A stretch of DNA of 32,102 nt, taken from positions 1 to 32,102 of the forward strand of contig DAIDHU010000505.1 in assembly GCA_027451915.1 (NCBI GenBank), in the 5' to 3' direction. Shown piece after piece: positions 1-20,756 of the stretch. The notes beneath the pieces are model-generated. The model had not been told where the DNA came from. It was given only the letters and a program-made list of their open reading frames with translations, and ran no database searches. Source of the stretch: Thiomonas sp. (GTDB lineage Bacteria > Pseudomonadota > Gammaproteobacteria > Burkholderiales > Burkholderiaceae_C). The translations under genes and the position numbers were made by a program. Within the stretch, counting starts at the first letter, position 1. Each line of letters opens with the position of its first letter.

Positions 1-1096
1 GTTCTTCCTCGTCGGTTGAATTAGCGTGGGCGGACGCATGTTCACGCTGTACTTGCATGGCCGAGACCTCCGTGAGAGCCGCTTCAACCGCGGCATGTTT
101 GGCCAGACTTTCAGGCGCAAGGATCGAGACCAGCCTGCGCCCTTCGTCGAGCCTGCAGATCTGGGAGATTTCCGCGAGGTCGTCATGACGAGCGAGCATG
201 GCAGGCAGGTCGTCAACCATGTCCTTGCGCACACGCAGCACCTCCGAGACGCTATCGGTCACCAGTCCGACCGCGGTCGCCCCCAGGGTGACGACGACGA
301 TCCGGCTGCGCTCGTCGATATTCCGAGCCGGCAGGTTGAACAGGCGCCGCAGCGACAACAGGGGGAGCAGCCTTTCACGCAGGGTCATCAGACCGATCAC
401 ATGCGCCTGCGCCTTCGGCACGTGGGCGATCGCCTCCGGAATCTGGACGATTTCCTGCACGCTCGCGATATCGATGGCGTATTCCTGGCCCTCCACGCTG
501 AAGCTGACGAGCTGCAATTCGTTGGAATCGACCTCCTGCTCGGGCGATGGCTGCGTACCCTGCAGGTCCTGCCGGACTTCGCTGCGCACCGCGGCAATGA
601 TCTGCGCGAACTCGCGCGCAATCAATCGCTCGAAATCCAGCACCATGACCATGGAAAAGCCGCCGACGTCCCGGAGAACGCCGCTGAGGAGATCGGAATC
701 GATCGTCGCGCGGATGCCGTCGACCTCCCCGATGCTGGCGGGCTCCACACTGATCACGCTGGCGATGCGGTCGACGACGAAGCCGAGCGCTTGTCCGATG
801 TCGATCACCAGGGCCCGTGTGGATTCATCATGAGCAGTCTCCTCGGCGCCGAAGATTCGACGAAGCGAGATGATGGGCAGTACGCGCCCACGCAGGTTCG
901 CGAGTCCGTGAAGCGAGCGTGGCGCCAGGGGTACCCGCACGATGTCGGGCATGCGAATGATTTCCTGCACCGGGTCCATCTGCACGCCGAACACCTCGTC
1001 GCCGACGATGAAGGTCACGAATTGTCGGGTCAAGGCACGCTGGTCCTCGGTCGCCGGGGGCCTGTCGCCTGCAGCCGACTGGATGTTTGTGCTCAT
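1..1096 (-). CDS. Multi-domain CheW-type chemotaxis coupling protein (3' end outside window)
   Basis: CheW-type scaffold that links chemoreceptors to a CheA kinase in the cytoplasm. The frame stays open from the ATG at 1096 to the window edge (365 codons, no stop), so the C-terminus is missing. Two complete CheW domains are visible. The first is at about residues 24-163 (QFVTFIVGDEVFGV, then LANLRGRVLPIISLRRIF). The second is at about residues 193-330 (LQLVSFSVEGQEYAI, then VIGLMTLRERLLPLLSLRRLF). The acidic tail at the edge (TDEEE) resembles the linker before another CheW domain, so a third is likely but not seen. The start has a strong AGGAGG 6-7 bases upstream and lies 14 bases after the chemoreceptor stop, so the two genes form one operon. 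A CheV is less likely because the second module is CheW rather than a receiver domain. Confidence 0.93.
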   Translation of the reverse strand, partial: MSTNIQSAAGDRPPATEDQRALTRQFVTFIVGDEVFGVQMDPVQEIIRMPDIVRVPLAPRSLHGLANLRGRVLPIISLRRIFGAEETAHDESTRALVIDIGQALGFVVDRIASVISVEPASIGEVDGIRATIDSDLLSGVLRDVGGFSMVMVLDFERLIAREFAQIIAAVRSEVRQDLQGTQPSPEQEVDSNELQLVSFSVEGQEYAIDIASVQEIVQIPEAIAHVPKAQAHVIGLMTLRERLLPLLSLRRLFNLPARNIDERSRIVVVTLGATAVGLVTDSVSEVLRVRKDMVDDLPAMLARHDDLAEISQICRLDEGRRLVSILAPESLAKHAAVEAALTEVSAMQVQREHASAHANSTDEEE

Positions 1097-1110
1097 CGCA
1101 CCCTCCTGCG

Positions 1111-3024
1111 TCAAGCGCTTTGAAGTTCATCGGCTAGTGCCGCGATTTCCTCGATGGCCGAAGACAACTCCTCCGATCCGCGGGCCTGCTGTTCGGCGGC
1201 ACTCGCCGCCTCGCCGGACGCCTTTTCCGCCTCCTGCGTCGCTCCGGAGATCTGCTCGACACCCTCCTTGACCTTGGCAATTGCGGCGCTGACGATCTCG
1301 GCGCCCTTGACGATTTCTTCAGCCGCGCTGCGCACACCGTCGACTTCCACCTCGGAGGTTGCGATGTGCTTGAGAATGCCCTTGGCCTTTTCCGTCTCAG
1401 CTGCTGCTGCGCCGATGATTTCGCGCAAGTCGGAGCCAACCAGCACGATCTGATCCTGGATCGACTTGATCATGTCGCGGATGCGGTCGGCGTTCTGCGC
1501 CGAATCGTGCGAAAGGTTCCGGATGTCTGTCGATACAACGATGAAGCCCTTGCCGAACTCGCCAGCACGCGCTGCCTCGATGGCCCCGTTGACCGCCAAC
1601 ATGTTGGTCTGCACCGAAACCATGGCGATCGATTCGACGATCTTGTCGATGTCCCGTGCAACGTTCTGCAGGTCGCCGACCTGACGGGCACAACCCTGGG
1701 TGATCTCGATGGCCTTCATGGTTCCAGCCAGCATGGCCTCGATGGTGGTCTTGATTTCGTTGATCGCGTGCTTGCCGAACTCCGCCTTCTCCAAGCCGAG
1801 ATTGCCGCCCTTCATCGACTCCTGAACGTTGAACTCGACCTGCCGAATGGCTTCGTTGGCGTCATTGGCGGCGTCCGTCTGGTCCTTGGCGCCGCGCCGG
1901 ATCTCGCCGATGGCCGACATGATCTCGGTGGACGCGCGGGTTATTTCCTTGACCGCGTTGGACAGTTCCTCGGCCGACGACGCAACGTCCTCTGCGCTCT
2001 TGGAAATGTCGGTGGAGTTCTTCAGATCCTCCGCTGTCTCGCTCAGGCCGCGTGCCGTCTGCTCGCAGTCACCGAGGGCTTTGGCCTGCTCGGCAATGAT
2101 CTTGTTGGACTCCTCTGCAGCGGCCGATTGCTGCGCCGAGGCCGCAGCGATGGTCTCCGACACCTTGGCCATCTTCTGGGTTGCGGTGGTTGCCTCCTTG
2201 GCGACTCCCACCACCAGTCTCGAAGCCTGGACCACCTCCGTGGACGCCTGTCCGATACGTCCCAGGGAGTCATTGACCGCGTCGCCCTTGTCCGCCTCGG
2301 CCTGCACCGTGCTGGTCGATTCGTTGACGCCCGCGGCCACCGATTTCACGTCCGTCTGGATCTTGGCGATCAGGTCCGAGATCTGCTTGGCACTCTTTTC
2401 CGAAGTCTCCGCCAGGGAACGCACCTCGTCGGCAACGACCGCGAACCCCTTTCCGTGCTGGCCCGCGCGCGCGGCCTCGATGGCGGCATTGAGCGCGAGC
2501 AGATTGGTCTGGTCGGCAATACGCCCAACCGCCTTGACGATGTCCCCAATGTCAGCCGCCTGCTTCTCCAGTCCGGTGACCATCTTCACCGATTCCACCT
2601 GGCGCTTGGCAGCCTGAATGACGTTGTTGACCATCTGGGAGACCTCTTCCATCACCCGTTGCGCGGCGGCTACGAGAGTCTCGCCCTTTTGCAGCGTGAT
2701 GTTGGCGTTCTGGTCCACCTGGTCCACGCCCACGACCATTTCCTTGATACGCACCGCCGAGTCCTGCGCCGCGCTGGATGCCTGCTCGGAGCCGGCTGCA
2801 ATCTGCTCGGCGGCGCGCTTGAGCTCCTCGGCAGCGGACGCAGCCTCGTTGATACCCGCGGCCAGCTGCCCGGTAGCGGCGGCGATGCGCTCGGCTGCCT
2901 GCTGCTGCTTGGCCAGGGTCCGGGCTCGACGGCGTTGCGCCTCCGCTTCCTTGGATACCACGTTGGGCGCCCGGCTCGGGCCAGCAACCGCACCCGATGG
3001 CGTGGACTTTTTCACCAGACTCAT
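1111..3024 (-). CDS. Soluble methyl-accepting chemotaxis protein with two signalling modules
   Basis: A 637-residue chemoreceptor with no transmembrane segment, HAMP or recognisable sensor domain; almost all of it is heptad-rich helix. It carries two MCP hairpin tips. The first, residues about 161-205, is near canonical ([18 protein letters not shown], then [16 protein letters not shown]). The second, about 461-505, is diverged ([18 protein letters not shown], then [18 protein letters not shown]). MCP tips contact CheA and CheW, so the protein should organise a cytoplasmic signalling array. Its partner is probably the multi-CheW protein encoded 14 bases downstream. The start at 3024 ([10 protein letters not shown]) is preferred over an upstream in-frame start because AAGGAG lies 7 bases before it. 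The input signal is unknown; residues 1-40 are basic and alanine-rich. Cytoplasmic receptors such as FrzCD are known, but a duplicated tip in one chain is uncommon. Confidence 0.93.
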
Positions 3025-3439: not shown

Positions 3440-3480
3440 TTGACGTAGATCACCGAGGCAACCACAAAACGATTGACAAT
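3440..3480 (+). promoter_or_regulatory. Possible FNR/Anr-type site with GACAAT -10 element
   Basis: TTGACGTAGATCAC at 3440-3453 matches the FNR/Anr pattern TTGAY-N4-RTCAA except at the final base. GACAAT at 3475-3480 fits a -10 hexamer. Their centres are 31 bp apart, close to the 32 bp expected when FNR binds at -41.5. Transcription would start near 3487 and leave a leader of about 170 bases before the GTG at 3657. The same pairing occurs, with a better dyad, before ubiU. Regulation is inferred. Confidence 0.45.
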
Positions 3481-3656
3481 CGCTCGTCCGAAAGCCTGGC
3501 GCTACGACCCCATGGCGTCGCAACCATGTCAGGAAATACTGGCTGACCGTGACCGAACCAGCTGTCGCGCAACCGATTGCCCGGCCCCATTCACCGGCAA
3601 CGCGTTTAGCAAAGCCGAATGTCCATGATTAACCCACAGCTGAACGGAGATCCGCC

Positions 3657-7500: not shown

Positions 7501-7860
7501 TCAGCGCACGCGCGACAATCGCGATCCAGCCGGGAAGGCGGCTCGACGCGCCGCTGGGCTACCGGGCAAAAGCCGTTCGTATTCCTGCCGGACGACCTGG
7601 TGGAACTCGCAGGTCCTGCGCTCCAGGCCGGGGCGGTCGAGCACGTGGATATGCCCGCGCGTGTAGCGAATGAGCCCATCGCGCTGCAGGCTCAAGGCGG
7701 CCTCGGTCACGCCCTCTCGCCGCACACCCACCATGTGGGCGATGAGTTCCTCGGTGACGATGATTTTCTACCCCGAAAGTCGATCCAGGTTCAACAGCAG
7801 CCAACGGGCACGCACTGCCGCCTGCGCGGCTCGCATCGCCTGATAAACCGCGCCGCGCAG
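7501..7860 (-). pseudogene. Remnant of a Crp/Fnr-family transcription regulator
   Basis: Reading leftward from 7860, the frame gives AVYQAMRAAQAAVRARW and then LLLNLDRLSG. It hits a TAG at 7768-7770 and continues in the same frame with EELIAHMVGVRREGVTEAA, then LQRDGLIRYTRGHIHVLDR, to a stop at 7501. This matches the winged-helix DNA-binding end of Crp/Fnr proteins, including the recognition helix. The cyclic-nucleotide-binding domain is absent: upstream to about 8008 the frame is open but unlike that domain. A 77-residue product could start at the ATG at 7734, but it would lack a sensor and dimerisation helix. I therefore treat it as decayed. The 187 bases between the c-di-GMP gene and this remnant (7314-7500) hold nothing I recognise. 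Confidence 0.7.
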
Positions 7861-12826: not shown

Positions 12827-12870
12827 CTTGACCCCGGTCAAGACCTGTGCCGAGGATCCCGGCTGACAAT
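12827..12870 (+). promoter_or_regulatory. FNR-type dyad and GACAAT -10 element upstream of ubiU
   Basis: CTTGACC (12827-12833) and GGTCAAG (12836-12842) form a perfect 7-bp dyad matching the FNR/Anr/DNR consensus TTGAC-N4-GTCAA. GACAAT at 12865-12870 lies 33 bp away centre to centre, the spacing of a class II FNR-activated promoter. No good -35 hexamer exists 17 bp upstream of the -10, as expected where an activator replaces it. Transcription would start near 12877 and read into ubiU. Control by low oxygen is inferred but agrees with the function of UbiUVT. Confidence 0.75.
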
Positions 12871-19953: not shown

Positions 19954-20756
19954 GTTTCGAATTCCACGCACGCCTGGCCGTCACCGGAGCCGCCGGGGCG
20001 CTGGGCACGGTATTGCGCGCCGAGCTGGCCCGCGTGGGGGTCCGCACCCTCAGCCTGGACCTGCGCGAGCCCTCGCGGGTGCACGACAACGAGACCTTCG
20101 TGCGCTGCGATCTCGCCGACGCCGAGGCCACGATGCGCGCGCTGCAGGCAGCCGATGCGGTGGTGCATCTGGGAGGCATCTCCACGACGGCGCCCTTCGA
20201 CTCGATCCTCTCGGCCAATATCTGCGGCAGCTTCCACGTGTTCGAAGCCGCGCGCCGTCACGGCATGCGCCGCGTCGTGTACGCCAGCTCCAACCACGTG
20301 ACCGGCTATTACCCCTCCAGCGAGCGCGTGCGGCCGGACATGCCACACCGCCCCGACTCCTTCTATGGGCTGTCCAAGGCCTTCGGCGAGGACCTGGCCC
20401 AGTTGTACTGGGACAAGTACGGCCTCGAATCGGTGGGCCTGCGCATCGGCTCGTGCTTCGAGAGGCCCCGTGATCGCCGCATGCTCAAGACCTGGCTGAG
20501 CCACCGGGACTTCCTGCGCCTGGTCGAGCGTGCGCTGCTGGCACCCAAGGTAGGGCACACCGTGGTCTACGGCGTCTCGAACAACCCCCGGGTCTACTGG
20601 GATGCCGATCCGGCCGGCGCACTCGGCTTCACCCCGCTCGACTCCTCCGCGGCCTTCGCCGGCTCGCTGCCCGGCGACGAGCCCGAACCCGAGCGACAGG
20701 GCGGCGGTTTCATCGAGGTCGATGAAACCGCGCTCGGCCCTGCGGAGCAAGCGTGA
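19950..20756 (+). CDS. udh: NAD-dependent uronate dehydrogenase
   Basis: A 268-residue short-chain dehydrogenase/epimerase-family enzyme that oxidises D-galacturonate or D-glucuronate at C1 to the aldaro-lactone using NAD+. The Rossmann motif is GAAGALGTVL near residues 11-20. The active site is Y139-x3-K143 (FYGLSKAFGE), with VVYASSNHVTGYYP contributing the serine. The length is close to that of Agrobacterium Udh (265). LRIGSCFERPRDRRML and the ending FIEVDETALG are typical of the family. It starts in an ATGA overlap with the aldehyde dehydrogenase stop. Its last codons contain a near-perfect 28-base inverted repeat, listed separately. Confidence 0.95.
   Translation: MSFEFHARLAVTGAAGALGTVLRAELARVGVRTLSLDLREPSRVHDNETFVRCDLADAEATMRALQAADAVVHLGGISTTAPFDSILSANICGSFHVFEAARRHGMRRVVYASSNHVTGYYPSSERVRPDMPHRPDSFYGLSKAFGEDLAQLYWDKYGLESVGLRIGSCFERPRDRRMLKTWLSHRDFLRLVERALLAPKVGHTVVYGVSNNPRVYWDADPAGALGFTPLDSSAAFAGSLPGDEPEPERQGGGFIEVDETALGPAEQA
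20704..20731. repeat. 28-base inverted repeat in the 3' end of udh
   Basis: GCGGTTTCATCGA (20704-20716) and TCGATGAAACCGC (20719-20731) are perfect complements separated by GG. The repeat lies in codons for GGFIEVDETAL, about 90 bases before the binding-protein start. It could be an operator for a dimeric regulator serving an internal promoter, or an RNA hairpin that protects or punctuates the operon mRNA. Confidence 0.65.

Follow-up and report, generated by a model that had tools for sequence, protein, structure and literature searches.

A putative class II FNR-activated promoter ahead of a c-di-GMP gene with hemerythrin and protoglobin modules in Thiomonas sp.

FNR class II control of a c-di-GMP phosphodiesterase is already known from yfgF (pdeF) of E. 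coli and Salmonella Enteritidis, where a class II FNR-dependent promoter drives a MASE1-GGDEF-EAL enzyme; in Salmonella the FNR box TTGAC--ATCAA lies at -41.5 with TACAAT as the -10, and activation of yfgF by FNR has been reported for E. coli (PMC3718329). Hemerythrin-bearing c-di-GMP enzymes have been described from V. cholerae (VcBhr-DGC) and Ferrovum (Bhr-HD-GYP), and globin-coupled c-di-GMP sensors include DosC/DgcO and BpeGReg (PMC8846402). In our partial literature search, no report brought together hemerythrin, FNR and diguanylate cyclase. The case described here would add a different sensor set to the one known from yfgF.

The window, i.e. the whole stretch of 32,102 nucleotides that was analysed, is contig G000:C505 of a 3.19 Mb metagenome assembly, which is 84% complete and 5.8% contaminated, and was compared with a genus set of 28 species/genomes. 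The habitat, judged from the kind of isolate names, would be acid mine drainage. A relatively A+T-rich intergenic region of 632 bp separates a divergent gene for a methyl-accepting chemotaxis protein (MCP) from a 1218-codon c-di-GMP gene that begins with GTG, and an FNR-like dyad lies 217 bp upstream of this start (Table 1). Positions 3440-3480 are probably a class II FNR-activated promoter of the c-di-GMP gene. Directly downstream of the c-di-GMP gene, a Crp/Fnr-family gene remnant (HTH_Crp_2, 9.6e-11) was seen on the minus strand at about 7565-7830, with an in-frame TAG just ahead of the helix-turn-helix, and this may be a pseudogene or an assembly error.

Table 1. Coordinates of the features discussed, in positions of the window except where residues are given
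Feature	Position	Strand	Remarks
FNR-like dyad TTGACGTAGATCAC	3440-3453	+	predicted activator site, centre 3446.5
Predicted -10 element GACAAT	3475-3480	+	21 nt past dyad, centre 3477.5
Predicted leader, about 170 nt	3481-3656	+	
c-di-GMP gene, 1218 aa	3657-7313	+	Pfam, NCBIfam
Domains of the c-di-GMP protein (residues)	Hemerythrin 16-129, GAF 213-349, GGDEF 373-531, Protoglobin 557-682, GAF-like, EAL 886-1116		
Divergent soluble methyl-accepting chemotaxis protein gene	1111-3024	-	MCPsignal 1.3e-60; ATG, AAGGAG upstream
TTGACCCCGGTCAA, N23, GACAAT upstream of ubiU	12828-12841 (dyad)	+	internal positive control

The initial annotation had described the dyad as matching the FNR pattern in all but its last base. 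The mismatch at the last base is there, but it is not the only one: against the canonical E. coli consensus TTGATNNNNATCAA, the dyad differs at C5 as well as C14 and agrees at 8 of the 10 consensus positions. C5 is ordinary within the genus, where the ccoN boxes read TTGAY-N4-GTCAA, and the site appears to be a dyad of the TTGAT-N4-ATCAA type or its genus equivalent. Its right half-site ends in C (TCAC, GTGA-type and CRP-like) and not in A, and the pattern of a CRP (cAMP) site, TGTGA-N6-TCACA, does not fit, GTTGA-N6-TCACC agreeing at 7 of 10 positions. The distance of 31 bp between the centres of dyad and GACAAT, as given in the same annotation, is exact by the sequence coordinates, and its description of the geometry as nearly class II also holds, with the -10 pointing to the gene and the same 31 bp at the ubiU of another genome (G018). 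With a dyad expected near -41.5, some 31-33 bp from the -10 centre, the predicted geometry is that of class II, and transcription would start near 3487. No good -35 element accompanies GACAAT, as in the standard class II configuration, where FNR sits immediately ahead of a -10 that lacks a -35. TTGACG and TTGACA were considered as the -35 of a sigma-70 promoter and rejected for want of an acceptable -10, and a consensus scan found no sigma-70 promoter.

The predicted leader is longer than those of the two homologue promoters L166 and L173 described below (roughly 55-70 nt). An Rfam search of it returned no match at E up to 1, and gave no riboswitch or other known RNA. A 38-codon ATG open reading frame (MASQPCQEIL...) at 3512-3628 could encode a leader peptide, and the small open reading frames of the intergenic region had no match in Pfam.

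As TTGATNNNNATCAA is absent from the genome that holds the site, the E. coli consensus is an unsuitable standard here and a genus motif was built instead, trained on 41 ccoN and hemN promoters of the genus with the window excluded from training. Both genes are textbook FNR/Anr targets. A perfect TTGAY-N4-GTCAA, followed after N22 by TACCTT or a variant as the -10, is present in all 15 ccoN loci whose upstream DNA was usable, while hemN has TTG[CT]-N6-TCAA, N22 and mostly xATxAT in 26 of 27, and both control promoters are found in the same genome as the site (L111, L139). On this motif TTGACGTAGATCAC scores 12.6 bits and ranks second among 32,089 window positions, or third when the motif is trained on either gene set alone; with training sites at 14.5-19.5 bits it falls below all of them and is a weaker-than-typical box. 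The ccoN and hemN spacing is 22 nt (32 bp), 1 bp longer than at the window site, and the 21-nt spacing is also present at the ubiU of G018 and at the L166/L195 and L173 promoters. The genus-level motif and spacing rule are usable for regulon prediction in uncultured relatives.

The control within the window is ubiU, a gene of oxygen-independent ubiquinone synthesis identified by an equivalog match (2e-161); its box TTGACCCCGGTCAA ranks first in the window on the genus motif and is a better box than TTGACGTAGATCAC. The E. coli ubiUV genes are activated by FNR (PMC10470549), and positions 12828-12870 are likely the FNR promoter of ubiU. Across both strands of the window, a dyad of at least 9 bits followed by a -10 at 21-23 nt occurs at only these two sites, 3440 and ubiU, and both point into their genes. 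The strict form, TTGACNNNNRTCAM-N21/22-NANAAT, has its single occurrence in the 3.19 Mb assembly at 3440, and occurs 11 times in 28 congeneric genomes compared with 0 for the reversed pattern. Matches elsewhere include the ubiU of G018, with an identical N21-GACAAT, and also two Crp/Fnr regulator genes, three thiM-like genes and one locus, adjoining a Crp/Fnr-type gene, that occurs in three copies; the genes in this list were named by eye. These occurrences suggest that 21 nt is a spacing in use and that the architecture marks plausible FNR-family targets.

Several further sites were noted. The third-best motif match in the window, TTGTACTGGGACAA at 20403-20416, lies upstream of a gene for an ABC transporter substrate-binding protein and has no -10 at class II distance. 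In the same genome, the FNR-type dyad TTGATGCCGGTCAA with N23 and a -10 stands ahead of a CxxCH cytochrome-like gene (L007), and in genome G004 TTGATACAGATCAA, N21 and GACAAT stand ahead of another (L079); in both, the gene starts 90 bp after the first base of the dyad. In three species (L209, L211, L213), TTGAC-N4-RTCAA-N22-NANAAT precedes a thiM-like kinase gene, an unexpected candidate target.

The nearest full-length homologue of the c-di-GMP protein is 51% identical, and no close orthologue of the gene was found. None of the 27 congeneric genomes contains DNA homologous to the upstream region of the window, so an alignment-based footprint is impossible. The initial annotation had named conservation of the dyad ahead of orthologues as a check; among homologues the picture is mixed. 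The upstream regions of L166 and its orthologue L195 contain TTGTCCGGGATCAA-N21-CAGAAT and that of L173 contains TTGTCGGAGATCAA-N21-GATAAT, but the dyad is missing upstream of the four nearest homologues of the window protein (L183, L169, L167 and L192). None of 300 shuffled sets of 27 homologue regions had the dyad-N21--10 arrangement in at least two regions (mean 0.017 per set), and in a cleaned genomic background its rate is 0.002 per 420 bp. The proteins of L166, L195 and L173, from three genomes, fall in one clade (100/99) apart from the window protein, and L173 and L166, being of the same clade, count as one independent recurrence and not two. Between the promoters of these two, only the dyad and the -10 can be aligned, which would be the pattern expected if selection keeps those elements. 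Conservation of the arrangement is patchy: another branch of the family has it too, but it is not universal. Two occurrences of TTGACCCAGATCAC, far upstream of L013 (-484) and L039 (-551), were rejected, as they lie near the start of or inside a divergent neighbour and share no position with the window site.

Regarding the regulator, the same genome encodes an FNR with the iron-sulfur cysteines. The protein on G000:C144, near ccoG-type genes, has all four cluster cysteines, with CX2CX5C and a central Cys, and an ETVSR recognition helix, and matches FNR structures at about 3e-46; on the NCBIfam Fnr model it scores 191 bits, below the cut-off of 228. A second Crp/Fnr regulator, on G000:C270, carries CRNC and an ETASR helix and could use the same box. 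We therefore weighed whether the site answers to this protein or to another of the family, such as a DNR-like NO sensor, the signal then being NO or another redox cue. This would be consistent with the FNR-type ETxSR helix that the assembly encodes a second time, with the promoters of the C270-regulator homologues in G008 and G017, which have the same TTGAC-N4-ATCAA-N21-NANAAT architecture, and with the CRP-like TCAC half-site, which counts for a non-FNR regulator. We nevertheless consider it unlikely, because the motif that locates the site was learned from classic FNR/Anr targets, and the G000:C270 protein reaches 83 bits on the Fnr model compared with 191 for that of G000:C144. The assembly has five cNMP-binding matches, none of which was recognised as a cAMP-CRP.

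Taken by itself, the dyad is only slightly out of the ordinary and is weak evidence. Shuffling the upstream region produced a dyad of equal score in 58 of 3000 cases (~2% by chance), the 32-kb window had been scanned by eye, and one-mismatch matches to TTGANNNNNATCAA number 5 in the window where 1.45 are expected. A chance resemblance, with a functionless dyad and transcription of the gene from an unrecognised promoter at another place in the intergenic region, would fit these figures, as well as the missing dyad in the closest homologues and a genomic background of ~0.02 dyads per 420 bp. What makes it quite unlikely is the arrangement and not the dyad: none of 3000 shuffles gave a dyad followed at 21-23 nt by a -10, and the strict form is found only once in the assembly. 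It is also conceivable that the site serves the MCP gene, which diverges from the same intergenic region, or acts as a repressor site, as a palindrome is directionless. However, the MCP start is more than 400 bp from the site and the minus strand has no -10 at class II distance from the dyad, which leaves either role very improbable.

The hemerythrin and globin-like modules ascribed earlier to the product were recovered as Pfam domains with conserved ligand residues. The hemerythrin domain matches DcrH-Hr at 1.7e-10 and contains the diiron ligand set H, HxxxE, HxxxH, H...D; the bacteriohemerythrin ligands H25, H62, E66, H83, H87, H122/H123 and D128 are invariant in 8 homologues. The Protoglobin domain scores 36.6 bits in Pfam (cut-off 25), and its proximal heme histidine H640, which corresponds in the alignment to the histidine of IGLVHVRIGI in Tlr1989, is invariant in the same number of homologues. 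The second GAF (GAF-like) was placed by position, without a Pfam match. In the GGDEF half, RLGGDEF is intact and accompanied by an RxxD I-site, and in the EAL half the acidic residues of the catalytic site are conserved or intact, the EAL signature itself being ESL; both sets of catalytic residues look intact, and the catalytic residues are conserved in the 8 homologues. GGDEF/EAL proteins of this type form an unusually large family, with at least 15 matches per genome, mostly 24-27, in every species of the genus.

Taken together, the sequence features support the FNR reading of the site in the initial annotation, as a prediction from sequence. Counting against it are the TCAC end of the box, the spacing 1 bp below that of ccoN and hemN, the longer leader, the missing dyad at the nearest homologues, the want of homologous upstream DNA in the congeneric genomes and the incompleteness of the metagenome assembly. 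For the class II FNR-activated promoter, [4Fe-4S] FNR would bind the dyad at low oxygen, centred about 40.5 bp upstream of the predicted start, and the bound FNR would recruit sigma-70 RNA polymerase to GACAAT, such that the product would chiefly be made when conditions are micro-oxic or anoxic. The diiron and heme domains of the protein may then adjust its c-di-GMP turnover to the oxygen level or redox state, and oxygen would govern a single enzyme at two points, how much of it there is and how active it is. Binding and activation by FNR are inferred here, as are the net activity of the enzyme and the direction in which expression responds to oxygen; post-translational control by the hemerythrin and globin would follow by analogy with the VcBhr-DGC, Bhr-HD-GYP, DosC and BpeGReg families. 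Tentatively, the locus could be a double oxygen gate, in which FNR sets the amount while the diiron and heme sensors set the making versus the destruction of c-di-GMP, and which would have arisen at least two times in the genus. If true, the main anoxia regulator would be linked to a c-di-GMP enzyme bearing two kinds of oxygen/redox sensor, and oxygen could set the motility/biofilm decisions of acid-mine Thiomonas-like bacteria via both transcription and activity.

Within the genus, the ccoN, hemN and ubiU promoters likewise carry a TTGAC/TTGN dyad and, 21-23 nt further on, a -10, although their boxes end in TCAA and the window box in TCAC. Among described systems, yfgF resembles the predicted arrangement in having an FNR box directly before a GGDEF-EAL gene; YfgF, however, is a membrane protein (MASE1) whose GGDEF is degenerate, whereas the window protein, by its sequence, combines an intact RLGGDEF with predicted sensors of the hemerythrin and protoglobin types. 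VcBhr-DGC and Bhr-HD-GYP also place an N-terminal bacteriohemerythrin ahead of a c-di-GMP output domain, and Ferrovum, the source of Bhr-HD-GYP, is also from acid mine drainage, but each of the two has one sensor and one output, in contrast to the hemerythrin, GAF and protoglobin of the window protein with both GGDEF and EAL. Finally, DosC/DgcO and BpeGReg share with it a protoglobin-type heme sensor tied to GGDEF; unlike these proteins, the window protein has its globin between the GGDEF and the GAF-like/EAL half, and it carries a diiron domain besides.
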